The translations under genes and the position numbers were made by a program. Positions 18,184 through 21,924 of a stretch of DNA of 64,000 bases are shown here, in pieces; position 1 is the first letter of the stretch; every line of letters starts with the position of its first letter. The DNA is from Arthrobacter sp. AFG20 (lineage in GTDB: Bacteria > Actinomycetota > Actinomycetes > Actinomycetales > Micrococcaceae). The DNA lies in the NCBI RefSeq assembly GCF_002892795.1, contig NZ_PJMC01000006.1, positions 62,001 to 126,000 on the forward strand. The letters run 5' to 3'. The notes below the pieces were generated by a model that was not told where the DNA came from, did no database searches, and saw only the letters and a list, made by a program, of their open reading frames with translations.

Positions 18184-18585
18184 GTGACCGCATCCGAATC
18201 GTCCGTCACCATAGCCCGGCACGCAGCCAGGGCCGCGGCGGACAAGATCGCCCACAACATCGTCGCCCTCGACGTCAGCGAACGCCTGGCTTTGGCGGAC
18301 GTGTTCCTCGTTGCCTCAGCACCCAGCGAACGCCAGGTCAACGCCATTGTCGACGGCATTGAAGAGGAGCTCATCAAGCAGGACCTCCGCCCGGTCCGCC
18401 GGGAGGGCCGCTCGGCCGGCCGGTGGGTCCTGCTGGATTATGCAGATGTTGTCATCCACGTTCAGCATGAGGAAGACCGTGTCTTCTATGCCCTGGAACG
18501 TCTCTGGAAGGACTGCCCGGTGGTGGACCTGCAGCTGGGAGACGACGCTTCGGCCAAGGCCGCCGCTGCCGCCGAGCAGGAGTAG
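18184..18585 (+). CDS. rsfS: Ribosomal silencing factor RsfS
   Basis: Binds L14 on the 50S subunit and blocks subunit joining when nutrients are short. The 133-residue protein shows ALDVSERLALADVFLVASAPSERQVNAIVDGIEEEL and GRWVLLDYADVVIHV, diagnostic for the RsfS/Iojap family. The GTG start follows ACAAGGAGT. The nadD-rsfS linkage is conserved in bacteria. Confidence 0.96.
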   Translation: MTASESSVTIARHAARAAADKIAHNIVALDVSERLALADVFLVASAPSERQVNAIVDGIEEELIKQDLRPVRREGRSAGRWVLLDYADVVIHVQHEEDRVFYALERLWKDCPVVDLQLGDDASAKAAAAAEQE

Positions 18586-18607
18586 CGCGCGACCAAATAT
18601 GCCCGAT

Positions 18608-18637
18608 TTGGAATTTTCGGAAACGCTGTTCTAAGAT
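18608..18637 (+). promoter_or_regulatory. Promoter of first tRNA-Ala
   Basis: TTGGAA (18608-18613) and TAAGAT (18632-18637) are spaced by 18 bases, in a short AT-rich segment about 80 bases before the tRNA. Confidence 0.55.
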
Positions 18638-18715
18638 ATTTGAGTTGCTTCGGAGAGATCCGGACAGAAGTGCGGATGCCACAGGCATGACGTGGGCCTG
18701 AAGCAGCAAGAATAC

Positions 18716-18788
18716 GGGGCTGTGGCGCAGCTGGTAGCGCACCTGCATGGCATGCAGGGGGTCAGGGGTTCGAGTCCCCTCAGCTCCA
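18716..18788 (+). tRNA. tRNA-Ala(GGC), copy 1
   Basis: 73 bases fold as a cloverleaf: acceptor GGGGCTG/CAGCTCC, anticodon stem CCTGC/GCAGG with loop ATGGCAT giving anticodon GGC (reads GCC and GCU), and T-loop GGTTCGAGTCC. The discriminator is A. The 3' CCA is not encoded (ACCG follows), so it must be added after transcription. Confidence 0.95.
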
Positions 18789-18795
18789 CCGGGCG

Positions 18796-18830
18796 ATCCG
18801 CCGGAATCGAAAGATTCCGGCGGATTTTTC
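18796..18830 (+). terminator. Terminator after tRNA-Ala copy 1
   Basis: ATCCGCCGGAATC (18796-18808), tetraloop GAAA, and GATTCCGGCGGAT (18813-18825) followed by TTTTTC make a textbook intrinsic terminator between the two tRNA copies. Copy 2 therefore needs its own promoter. Confidence 0.95.
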
Positions 18831-18977
18831 TTTGCCCTAAAGTGGCGCCGGACGGGCTTTGGGTGCCCGGGGGAGCGTGACGGAAGCCACATGCCGCCGA
18901 TTCGCATCTTGGCGGTTTCTGGACTACGCTGGTCGGGTTGCTTCGGGAAAACGCAAAGATTCCTGAGGGAACAGCTT

Positions 18978-19050
18978 GGGGCTGTGGCGCAGCTGGTAGC
19001 GCACCTGCATGGCATGCAGGGGGTCAGGGGTTCGAGTCCCCTCAGCTCCA
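18978..19050 (+). tRNA. tRNA-Ala(GGC), copy 2
   Basis: Identical over all 73 bases to the copy at 18716-18788, with anticodon GGC. Unlike copy 1, it is followed by an encoded CCA (19051-19053). The flanks differ, so the duplication covers little more than the tRNA itself. Confidence 0.95.
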
Positions 19051-19124
19051 CCAAGTAGCCGCCTGATCATAGACTGACCGTGATCCGGCGGCTTTTCTCT
19101 TTAAATCCACTGCCGGTACCGCGA

Positions 19125-19181
19125 TCTTTGACGAATCTTGGATATTCCTTGGACGCGTCTTTTCCGTCATGCCCCTACAGT
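19125..19181 (+). promoter_or_regulatory. 11-bp-phased heptad array and -10 of first EPGDDKGG gene
   Basis: TCTTTGA (19125), TCTTGGA (19136), CCTTGGA (19147) and TCTTTTC (19158) repeat with exactly 11 bp between starts. A -10-like TACAGT lies at 19176-19181, seven bases before the ATG. Direct heptads with 4-bp spacers are the classical target of OmpR/PhoB-family response regulators. The same array, at the same distance, precedes the paralogous gene. Confidence 0.65.
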
Positions 19182-19187
19182 GGAGCC

Positions 19188-19718
19188 ATGAAGACGGGAG
19201 CTGCTCTGGTGCTGTCCGTTGCAGGCATACTCGCAGCGGGCTCGGCCGCACTTGCCGTCAATACGCAGGTGCTGAACGTCTCGCCCCCGGGCACCGGAAA
19301 TGCCAACATCGTCCTCCTGCCCAATGGTGCAGTGCCGCCCATTTCTGGCACCAGTGACGGACCGAAGGCCACACCACAGGCAACTGGCACGCCGGCCGGT
19401 GCGCAGAAGGCGGCCACTCCGGCGAAATCCAGCTCCGCAAAGCCGGGGTCCGCGAAGTCCAGTGCAGCGGCTTCAAACGCAGCGAAATCGAATCCGGCAA
19501 AATCTGCCCCGGCCGCCGCGCACGGGATTGCCGGCGGTTCCGCGGCAGGACCGTCTTCTTCCGGCCCCGGTGGCGGGTTGGCCGGTGGAGCGGTGACCGT
19601 TCAGCCCGTGCCCGTCCCGGGCAGCGTGATCCCCGTTGAGCCAGGGGATGACAAGGGCGGCCTGCGGAAGGCGCCGGAGCCCGGCGATGACAGCGGCGGC
19701 CACGGCGCCGACGACTGA
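19188..19718 (+). CDS. Secreted EPGDDKGG-repeat protein, short paralog
   Basis: A 176-residue exported protein of unknown function. The signal peptide is MKTGAALVLSVAGILAAGSAALA, cleaved near residue 23. The middle is Ala/Ser/Lys/Pro-rich (AKPGSAKSSAAASNAAKSNPAK), and the C-terminus carries two acidic units, EPGDDKGGLRKA and EPGDDSGGHGADD. ATG 19188 follows GTGGAGCC very closely to a -10 element, so the mRNA may be almost leaderless. The next gene is a clear paralog with eight units. Confidence 0.85.
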   Translation: MKTGAALVLSVAGILAAGSAALAVNTQVLNVSPPGTGNANIVLLPNGAVPPISGTSDGPKATPQATGTPAGAQKAATPAKSSSAKPGSAKSSAAASNAAKSNPAKSAPAAAHGIAGGSAAGPSSSGPGGGLAGGAVTVQPVPVPGSVIPVEPGDDKGGLRKAPEPGDDSGGHGADD

Positions 19719-19891
19719 CCAGCAGGTCGCATCTGTTCCCGCCTGGGCACCGTTTCCTGCCCGCCTTCTGACCTGCGTTCCTCCCTGCCTGACCTGTGTC
19801 AGCTGACTGGGCATTCCGTCCTGTGCCGATGCGGCTGGCCGCCGCGCGGCCGCGGGACGGCGGCCCGGGTGGGGGAGAACCCCGTAGGCAA

Positions 19892-19948
19892 TCTTGGACA
19901 AGTCTTGGATTTCCTTTGCACCTATCCTCGACGGCGAGTTCCTAGTGT
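19892..19948 (+). promoter_or_regulatory. 11-bp-phased heptad array and -10 of second EPGDDKGG gene
   Basis: TCTTGGA (19892), TCTTGGA (19903), CTTTGCA (19914) and TCCTCGA (19925) are spaced by exactly 11 bp. TAGTGT at 19943-19948 is a -10 candidate. The first heptad lies 63 bp before the ATG, as in the paralog, while sequence between the array and the start has diverged. Confidence 0.65.
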
Positions 19949-19954
19949 GGAGCT

Positions 19955-20602
19955 ATGAAAACAAGAGCAGCCCTCGCATTATCCGTCGCCGGCGTTCTCC
20001 TCACCGGAAGTGCCGCCTTCGCCACCACCCAGTCGCTGAGCAAGACCGGCACGGGTACCAGTGACGACGCCAGGAACGTCCTCGTAACGGACGACTCTGC
20101 CACCAGAACCTCCGCCCCCGCCGTCAGCTCCGCCGGAACCACCCCCAAGTCAGCCGCTAAGTCCAGCGACGATACCCAAGCCGACGACAAGAAGGCACCA
20201 GCCGCCAAGAAAGCGTCCAAGCCTGCGGAAGCGGGCGACGACAAGGGAGGGCTCCGGACCACCCCTGAGCCCGGCGACGACAAGGGCGGAACCGCGGCAG
20301 CGCCTGCAGAAAACTTCGTCGGCAGCGGCTCCCTCTCCGTTGAACCCGGTGACGACAAGGGCGGCCTCCGGACTGCCCCCGAGCCCGGTGACGACAACGG
20401 CGGTCTCCGCTCAAACCAGGCGCCGCGGGTTGCTGAACCCGGCGATGACCACGGTGGACTGCGGACGGCTTCCGAACCCGGCGACGACAAGGGCGGCGAT
20501 CGTAAGGCCGTTGAACCCGGCGACGACAAGGGCGGCGACCGTAAGGCCACTGAGCCCGGCGACGACAGCGGAGGCAGCGGCGGCCACGGCAGCGACGACT
20601 GA
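19955..20602 (+). CDS. Secreted EPGDDKGG-repeat protein, long paralog
   Basis: A 215-residue exported protein of unknown function. Its signal peptide (MKTRAALALSVAGVLLTGSAAFA) resembles the previous gene's. After a Thr/Ser/Lys linker come eight units of the form EPGDDxGG with short spacers (LRTA, DRKA, LRSN), ending GGSGGHGSDD. The dense Asp pairs and glycines suggest an extended acidic surface polymer or cation-binding array, but that is inference. A terminator follows. Confidence 0.85.
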   Translation: MKTRAALALSVAGVLLTGSAAFATTQSLSKTGTGTSDDARNVLVTDDSATRTSAPAVSSAGTTPKSAAKSSDDTQADDKKAPAAKKASKPAEAGDDKGGLRTTPEPGDDKGGTAAAPAENFVGSGSLSVEPGDDKGGLRTAPEPGDDNGGLRSNQAPRVAEPGDDHGGLRTASEPGDDKGGDRKAVEPGDDKGGDRKATEPGDDSGGSGGHGSDD

Positions 20603-20641
20603 ACGAGACGACAGAGCAAGCAAGCAATCGACTAATAGCCA

Positions 20642-20679
20642 GAAGGCCCTCCTGCACCTCGGTGTCATGGAGGGCCTTC
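20642..20679 (+). terminator. Terminator after the EPGDDKGG gene pair
   Basis: GAAGGCCCTCC (20642-20652) pairs with GGAGGGCCTTC (20669-20679), with TGCACC/GGTGTCA partly pairing inside; CGTCT follows rather than a long T-run. Confidence 0.75.
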
Positions 20680-20766
20680 CGTCTGCCAAGGACGCTCGGA
20701 AGCCGGGCCGGGACGAGCCTAGGATGAAGACATGAAGCGGATCAGCGAGCCAGGGGAGCGGCACTA

Positions 20767-21924
20767 TTGAGCGGTGGCACTGTAAACGGTGGATTGAGCC
20801 GCAATGCCGACGTCGTGGTCATCGGCGCAGGGCAGGCAGGCCTCTCCGCGGCCTTCCACCTGGCCCGCCGCGGCTTCACGCCAGCCCCGGCCGCAGAACA
20901 GCCAGATGGTGCAATGACGGCAGCCGGTCGAGGGCGGACGTACGCGGTGCTGGACGCCGAGGAGGGGCCGGGTGGAGCCTGGCGGCACCGCTGGAAGAGC
21001 CTGCTCATGGCCACCGTAAACGGCATCAGTGACCTTCCCGGGATACCGCAGCCGGATGTCGACCCGGCGGAACCAAGCTCGGCATTCCTCAGCCGCTACT
21101 TCGCCGCCTACGAGCGGCAGGTCGGGCTGGCTGTCGAGCGGCCCGTCAAGGTGCTCGCCGTCGAACGTGCGGACGCTGACCCGGCGGGGCGGCTAAGGAT
21201 CACCACGTCCGACGGCGGCTGGACGGCCCGGGCAGTCATCAATGCCACCGGAACCTGGACCAGGCCTTTTTGGCCGATCTATCCGGGCCAGTTCACGTTC
21301 GGGGGCCGCCAGTTGCATGTCGCCGACTACGTGTCCGCAGAGGAGTTCCGCGGGCTGCACGTCGTCGTGGTGGGCGGTGGCATCTCCGCCGTTGGGCTGC
21401 TGGACGAAATCTCCAAGGTCACAACGACGAGCTGGTTCACGCGCCGCGAGCCTGTATGGCGGGACGGGTTCAACCGGCAGTCCGGGCACGACGCCGTCGC
21501 CCTGGTGGAAGACCGGGTACGGCGGGGGCTGCCGCCGCAAAGCGTCGTCGCTGCCACCGGTCTCATCTGGACTCCGGCACTACGGGCGGCAGCGGCGCGC
21601 GGCGTACTGGACCGCCGGCCGATGTTCACGGCGATAGAACCCGGCGGCGTCCGGCTCGCGGACGGCGGGTTCCTCGAGGCGGACGTGATCCTGTGGGCCA
21701 CCGGGTTCCGCGCCGAGCTGGAGCACCTGGCGCCGCTGCACCTGCGGGGACCAGGCGGCGGGATTGCCATGGAAGGAACGCAGGTGGCCGCGGAACCCCG
21801 GGTGCACCTGGTGGGCTACGGCCCGTCGTCGTCGACCATAGGCGCAAACCGCGCTGGGCGGGCCGCCGTGACCGAAATCCTCAAACTCCTGTCAGCCTCC
21901 GCAGCCGTGGCTGATCCGCGGTAG
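20767..21924 (+). CDS. FAD-dependent NAD(P)-binding oxidoreductase (flavin monooxygenase-like)
   Basis: A 385-residue flavoprotein. It has an N-terminal FAD Rossmann motif (VVVIGAGQAGLSAAFHLARRG), an internal NAD(P) motif (VVVVGGGISAVGLLDEI), and the ATGF-type motif VILWATGFRAEL near the C-terminus. These are typical of flavin-containing monooxygenases and related reductases; the substrate is unknown. The start is TTG 20767, eight bases after AGGGGAG. An RNA methyltransferase gene follows after 57 bases. Confidence 0.85.
   Translation: MSGGTVNGGLSRNADVVVIGAGQAGLSAAFHLARRGFTPAPAAEQPDGAMTAAGRGRTYAVLDAEEGPGGAWRHRWKSLLMATVNGISDLPGIPQPDVDPAEPSSAFLSRYFAAYERQVGLAVERPVKVLAVERADADPAGRLRITTSDGGWTARAVINATGTWTRPFWPIYPGQFTFGGRQLHVADYVSAEEFRGLHVVVVGGGISAVGLLDEISKVTTTSWFTRREPVWRDGFNRQSGHDAVALVEDRVRRGLPPQSVVAATGLIWTPALRAAAARGVLDRRPMFTAIEPGGVRLADGGFLEADVILWATGFRAELEHLAPLHLRGPGGGIAMEGTQVAAEPRVHLVGYGPSSSTIGANRAGRAAVTEILKLLSASAAVADPR

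Follow-up and report, generated by a model that had tools for sequence, protein, structure and literature searches.

Tandem heptads precede genes for predicted exported low-complexity proteins in Arthrobacter and point to an OmpR/PhoB-type two-component system

Two genes for predicted exported proteins and their promoters

The window analysed here is a stretch of 64,000 nucleotides (G000:C47:62001-126000) within the 4.9-Mb genome of Arthrobacter sp. AFG20 (G000). Two genes follow each other on its forward strand, gene 1 at 19188-19718 (176 aa) and gene 2 at 19955-20602 (215 aa), and both are predicted to encode exported low-complexity proteins. A reading made from the sequence alone (the sequence-only reading) had noted a shared signal peptide, and similar predicted signal peptides, identified by eye, do open both products: 19188-19256 in gene 1, cut after ALA to give the mature N terminus VNTQVL, and 19955-20023 in gene 2, with the mature N terminus TTQSL. 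It had also counted two EPGDDxGG units in the first protein and eight in the second. The counts agree, with two PGDDxGG units and a C-terminal GGHGADD in gene 1, and eight (E)PGDDxGG units, one of them EAGDD, and a C-terminal GGHGSDD in gene 2. The mature gene 1 product carries a net charge of +1, the mature gene 2 product one of -13 with 37 Asp/Glu residues; together the two products contain one aromatic residue and no cysteine. The same reading had placed the proteins in no known family, and no Pfam or NCBIfam model scored above its cut-off with either of them, nor was a CpxP- or ZraP-like family matched in these collections at E ≤ 10. Relatives of gene 2 were found in Arthrobacter ipis, Arthrobacter sp. 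ISL-65 and A. globiformis, and a search of a plasmid collection gave no match. Tandem tRNA-Ala(GGC) genes (18716-18790 and 18978-19053) lie immediately upstream of gene 1.

Each gene is preceded, on the same strand, by tandem heptads that form a predicted response-regulator site. In P1 (19125-19164) these are TCTTTGA at 19125, TCTTGGA at 19136, CCTTGGA at 19147 and TCTTTTC at 19158, and in P2 (19892-19931) TCTTGGA at 19892 and 19903, followed by the weak CTTTGCA at 19914 and TCCTCGA at 19925. The heptad positions, the 11-bp steps and the 63 bp from heptad 1 to the ATG (19188 and 19955) given in the sequence-only reading all hold. Its description of four heptads per promoter stands for the 11-bp phase, but only heptads 1-3 of P1 and 1-2 of P2 are strong, the remaining ones matching TCTTGGA at 4-5 of 7 bases. 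Predicted forward-strand -10 hexamers, TACAGT in P1 (19176-19181; orthologs keep TAnnnT) and TAGTGT in P2 (19943-19948), start 51 bp from the start of heptad 1 in both promoters (19125 to 19176 and 19892 to 19943). Because these hexamers end 6 nt before the ATG, we infer that the transcripts are leaderless. A sigma-70 consensus scan of 18550-20800 returned no promoter, in keeping with a missing -35 box.

Conservation of the array and of the protein family

The sequence-only reading had staked its case on finding the heptads upstream of orthologs. Of the 30 distinct upstream sequences in the family, 24 carry the array at -63/-52, its placement in the window, with 10 or more of 14 bases matching, and TAnnnT lies at -12 in 22 of 23 tabulated family promoters and at -13 in the other. 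The divergence of the DNA between heptads, first noted for the two window promoters, extends to the family, whose promoters keep the heptads while the flanks diverge; the 51-bp spacing is near-fixed across loci of 47-76% GC. The six array-less upstream regions belong to a third-paralog group (L004, L008, L026, L027 and L029) and to L023, the second gene of one tandem.

The periodicity was assessed on 13 representatives under 85% identity, taken from the distinct upstream regions. Their self-match at lag 11 was 0.448, compared with at most 0.343 at the other lags between 5 and 19, as expected where direct repeats at steps of about 11 bp precede a -10 element. When 12 divergent Arthrobacter promoters were scanned against TCTTGGA, with C permitted as first base, the mean match peaked at offsets 0, 11, 22 and 33 (6.3, 7.0, 4.5 and 3.75 of 7; the next-best offset, 34, reached 3.5). 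Because the mean match is highest at these four offsets, a four-heptad phase is, by this measure, present but fades towards the -10. Four equal heptads were considered and rejected, since heptads 3-4 are weak and lag 11 is not the best within -52 to -23 (0.35 versus 0.40 at lag 17). In 14 more distant promoters, offsets 0 and 11 alone stand out.

A genome-wide search for the heptad pair, as the sequence-only reading had proposed, found exact TCTTGGA-N4-YCTTGGAT sites at family promoters with one exception: of 12 sites in 150 congener genomes, 11 have a family gene starting exactly 63 bp on, and the twelfth is a relic beside a regulator gene. With up to one mismatch, the 11 genomes that carry the kinase described below hold 24 sites, 21 of them at family promoters or the relic and three elsewhere (0.27 per genome), and the 139 other genomes hold 36 (0.26 per genome; counted by hand). 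One-mismatch sites away from family genes thus run at the background rate. Three of the 36 neighbourhoods were inspected (G102, G135 and G096), two of which lie at family genes. The motif search also brought to light three family genes overlooked by the protein search: an additional one in G010, one in G102 and, in G135, one with a frameshift; a regular-expression search over the retrieved loci, which broken genes would escape, found no further family gene. As judged from these counts, the arrays exceed chance expectation. No further regulon target stands out at up to one mismatch in the 150 genomes, a level at which poorer sites would not show, and a two-mismatch site in the window genome (C45:262136) is not above the backward control.

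Relatives retain the signal peptide, a cut site resembling AxA and, at the start of the mature protein, an N terminus such as VNTQ-L; a chain rich in Pro, Ser, Thr, Ala and Gly follows. Mean pairwise identity within the genus is 70% for the signal peptide, 46% for the mature N terminus, 32% for the linker and 72% for the C-terminal block. The tail varies in sequence, repeat and charge, some relatives having poly-Asp/Glu tails and others (L132, L138 and L140) neutral or Lys/Pro-rich ones, with the proviso that some tails end at a locus boundary. Repeats and acidity are lineage-specific when compared across family relatives, and the mature product is probably a disordered chain in the envelope space.

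The third paralog of the window genome (G000:C31:66029-66598; L008/L045) is array-less, has a TTG start where its relatives have ATG, and comes just after a short ORF ending AMLAHLQEIQDGG; it is probably regulated otherwise. A truncated family remnant at G000:C45:265471-265530 (L010/L055) encodes only the C-terminal EPGDDSGGHGGHGSDD, and its surroundings are similar to the sequence next to an intact G103 copy (L049). Proteins with the motif NPGNPERALLDHL / YPGHPERALLEHL recur near family genes (L050:7755-8024; L054:6717-7859).

A linked kinase/regulator pair

The nearby response regulator that the sequence-only reading had suggested looking for was found beside family genes in other species, but elsewhere in the window genome. 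In five other species (G010, G050, G110, G103 and G032) a family gene adjoins genes for an OmpR/PhoB-type response regulator and a Cache-like histidine kinase; in G010 it shares the strand of the pair and lies upstream of it, and in the other four it is divergent. The orthologous pair of the window genome is at G000:C11 (about 91.5-93.6 kb; L060), outside the window, with a kinase 77% identical, beside an OHCU-decarboxylase-like gene and purF (names assigned by eye). Up to four family paralogs occur per genome (G103).

The G050 regulator combines Response_reg and Trans_reg_C domains, and the G050 kinase has HAMP, HisKA and HATPase domains. With the PhoB model TIGR02154 the regulator scored 171.8 bits, well short of the cut-off of 296.2. 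Its best NCBIfam match was CseB (197.6 bits), yet this too is below the cut-off of 350. The Streptomyces CseABC locus includes an envelope accessory protein; the likeness to it lies in that CseB match and in this accessory protein, and neither CseA nor SigE was recognised by eye among the listed neighbours. The best-scoring solved regulator was RegX3, by general family similarity. All nine aligned Arthrobacter regulators have an identical presumed recognition helix (its position judged by eye), which is slightly changed in G443, a genome of another family. The outer domain of the kinase matched Cache models at E ≤ 0.1 in 15 of 15 sensor sequences (best 5.9e-9), but the one sensor with a complete table, member 1, stays below the Cache gathering scores. 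Profile relatives in the PDB included 3by9, DctB and WalK, the Cache sensors among the matches being weak (E 3e-4 to 0.04); the sensor domain is tentatively assigned as Cache-like.

Across the 150 congener genomes, the kinase (E ≤ 1e-100) and the family protein (E ≤ 1e-3; 20 candidates per genome scored) pick the same 11 genomes. Because the Obg-similarity ranks of these genomes relative to G000 are 1-5, 7, 13, 22, 25, 71 and 92 of 148 (hand count), they are patchily scattered, the top five nevertheless being close relatives. Two genomes, G102 with an intact gene and G135 (68% complete) with a frameshifted one, carry an array-bearing family gene but no such kinase (best E about 1e-32); with these two counted, co-occurrence in the genus sample is 11 of 13. 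One possibility is that G102 and G135 lost the kinase and that decay followed.

Next to the regulator gene, G000 and G141 have a decayed array, and a search allowing up to two mismatches detected none in G002, G129 and G138; in G028 the array is intact (L102:5132-5150) and the exported-protein gene is gone. From this pattern, the array seems to belong to the exported-protein gene as part of its promoter and not to be needed by the regulator gene. The ATG of the regulator gene is itself closely preceded by CATAAT or GATAAT (L102:5060-5073; equivalents in L060 and L108), so this gene may be leaderless too.

Wider searches covered 396 genomes of the order and 394 of the class, the genome sets used being partly overlapping samples; scoring in the multi-genome protein searches was confined to the top 4-20 candidates of each genome. 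In the order sample the kinase (E ≤ 1e-60) was found in four genomes, three of which also matched the protein profile (E ≤ 1e-6). The fourth is G443, with a kinase 50% and a regulator 64% identical. There, a divergent gene encodes an exported protein that has EPGDD as well as GGHGRDD at its C terminus, and its promoter reads TCTTCAC-N4-CCTTGGA, then TAGCGT 51 bp on.

In the class sample the kinase profile (E ≤ 1e-85) matched 23 genomes, 21 of them besides G000 and G002. All 13 kinase genomes of families f50, f54 and f55 have an opposite-strand gene with a similar N terminus, nine of these partners being identified by regular expression and L135, L138, L139 and L143 by eye, among ORFs following the array or annotated genes. 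A heptad pair lies 50-52 bp from TAnnnT in 12 of the 13, and in L136 at 40 bp, one heptad closer. In a shuffle test, which left the regulator unlocated in three of 22 loci (L142 of this set among them), 0-11 of 1000 shuffles reached the observed score at the 11 f50/f54/f55 loci with a match and in G443. The arrays of L135 and L139 are marginal, with 10 and 11 of 1000 shuffles respectively, and the L139 gene starts about 150 nt past the -10. By the called starts, the f50 and f54 promoters, and L143 in f55, do not give leaderless transcripts. In G842, two partner-like genes (L131:260-712 and L131:2-181) each have a heptad pair of their own, at spacings of 50 and 51.

Eight loci with more distant kinases (seven in f37, one in f29) have no partner N terminus within about 1.5 kb on each flank. 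Six of them could be shuffle-tested, giving four weak sites (9-10 of 14 bases; 1-35 of 1000 shuffles) and two without any; the 10-of-14 site of L151 (f37), where the partner is absent, was reached by one of 1000 shuffles. The f29 locus (L148) has a different exported ORF with an acidic tail, and the array is absent. Altogether, the pair with its partner gene was found in five families of one class (f1, f19, f50, f54 and f55). The two-component control of OmpR/PhoB type proposed in the sequence-only reading is thus strongly supported at the sequence level by neighbourhood, co-occurrence and a footprint across families.

A proposed output and its alternatives

Linkage, co-occurrence, site, spacing and the export-signal-like N terminus suggest, with a probability of about 0.8, that gene 1 and gene 2 are dedicated targets of the OmpR/PhoB-family regulator whose gene adjoins that of the Cache-like kinase at G000:C11. 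The ancestral unit would have been an exported-protein gene divergent from regulator and kinase, and in the window lineage the exported-protein genes would have come to be located elsewhere and been duplicated. The Cache domain would sense some envelope signal. The phosphorylated regulator would then dock as a head-to-tail dimer on the strong heptads 1-2 (TCTTGGA-N4-YCTTGGA, -63 to -46), from where it would probably spread onto the weak heptads 3-4, down to -24. Bound there, it would replace the missing -35 box and bring in RNA polymerase at the TAnnnT -10, some 51 bp from heptad 1. From the leaderless mRNA a protein would be made and exported by its signal peptide as a probably disordered, low-complexity chain with a kept N terminus. 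This protein would be the main output of the system, acting as an effector in the envelope or wall space and possibly also feeding back on the kinase.

According to PMC4832192, M. tuberculosis PhoP binds cooperatively, as a dimer, to direct repeats of 7 bp separated by 4 bp. Those sites have the same head-to-tail 7+4 bp form as the arrays described here, and the regulator likewise joins a receiver to a winged helix. The differences are the heptad itself (TCTTGGA), the 51-bp spacing to the -10 and what is apparently a one-family regulon. The arrays give an uncharacterised kinase/regulator pair a DNA site, a promoter geometry and a target gene, so that its signal and role can be tested directly with a single reporter.

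That the arrays are functionless, either promoter sequence inherited through duplication or chance repeats, is extremely improbable. Both window promoters belong to paralogs and the G028 array is intact though its gene is gone, but heptads conserved between diverged flanks, the near-fixed 51-bp spacing at 47-76% GC, the few shuffles that score as well and the decay of the regulator-side copy after gene loss in G000 and G141 all speak against it. We also consider it very unlikely that the heptads serve another, global OmpR-family regulator and that adjacency to the kinase pair is incidental. G102 and G135 do retain array and gene without the kinase; however, in the 150 genomes exact sites are found only in kinase-positive genomes and only at this family, bar one relic, and heptad pairs accompany the kinase beyond its own family, where kinase identity has dropped to about 50% or lower. 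The DDKGG proteins of L005 and L006, moreover, whose neighbours are other two-component systems, have no heptad pair.

What the exported protein does is a separate matter. CiaX is an exported protein. Together with CiaRH in the CiaXRH system of Streptococcus mutans it is termed a three-component system in PMC8317062, and in PMC10848872 CpxP is the negative regulator of CpxRA and zinc-bound ZraP represses its own operon. The proteins studied here resemble these three by analogy, as small proteins encoded with a two-component system and perhaps tied to its control, and an export signal (by eye) and adjacency to a two-component system (in other species) were both found. They differ in matching neither the CpxP nor the ZraP family, in their low-complexity chain, and in phylum and kinase. 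A role mainly as feedback or accessory partner, in which the regulator would switch on a secreted protein whose signal peptide or N terminus touches the Cache sensor or its membrane helices and tunes it, is a possible reading that we regard as somewhat doubtful. The tight linkage of the family gene to kinase and regulator, the signal-peptide region better kept than the linker (70% versus 32%) and the N terminus as the part common to distant relatives favour it, as do the CiaX, CpxP and ZraP precedents. Up to four paralogs (G103) and a varying repeat number suggest dosage or effector use instead, no CpxP-like family was matched, and a system with no other target found that acted only on its own brake would have no output.

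The cation or phosphate link that the sequence-only reading had ventured is not supported. Extracellular chelators whose acidic GDDxGG/HGGHGSDD tails bind Ca, Mg, Zn or phosphate-linked cations under metal- or phosphate-sensing control would fit the net charge of -13 and 37 Asp/Glu of the mature gene 2 product, the poly-Asp/Glu tails of some relatives and the PGDD...GGHGSDD C terminus well conserved within Arthrobacter. Against this, the mature gene 1 product is at +1, the acidic repeats are not conserved, L132, L138 and L140 have neutral or Lys/Pro-rich tails, and the G050 regulator is far below the PhoB cut-off. Acidic chelation was rejected as a general conserved function, since tails are not consistently acidic among relatives, and this explanation is an unlikely one for the family.

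Because no other target stands out, the exported protein is favoured, at about even odds, as the output itself; a feedback role is the main rival, and the two are not exclusive; exported, probably disordered proteins would then be the likely main output of a two-component system. More speculatively, and in our judgement improbable though worth stating, Cache kinase, regulator and exported disordered protein may form a three-part module, the protein being both essentially the sole output and an extracytoplasmic ligand or reporter for the kinase through its conserved signal peptide and mature N terminus. If so, cells would gauge their own envelope by a secreted chain with a freely diverging tail. 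Among the titles and opening abstract lines returned by literature searches, none describes such a three-part actinobacterial module, and nothing was found there on EPGDDKGG or on TCTTGGA direct repeats with a response regulator.

Secreted DDKGG-repeat or similar proteins also stand beside kinase/regulator genes in a metagenome-assembled genome (L005:4650-5234) and in Glaciihabitans (L006:4320-5354). There the regulators are others (NarL-type and OmpR-type) and a heptad pair with a -10 is absent, so that the pairing with two-component systems is possibly convergent. In the window genome itself, another OmpR-type regulator/kinase pair, followed by a gene for a small secreted protein, lies at about 72-75 kb of G000:C31 (L058:39-3006).
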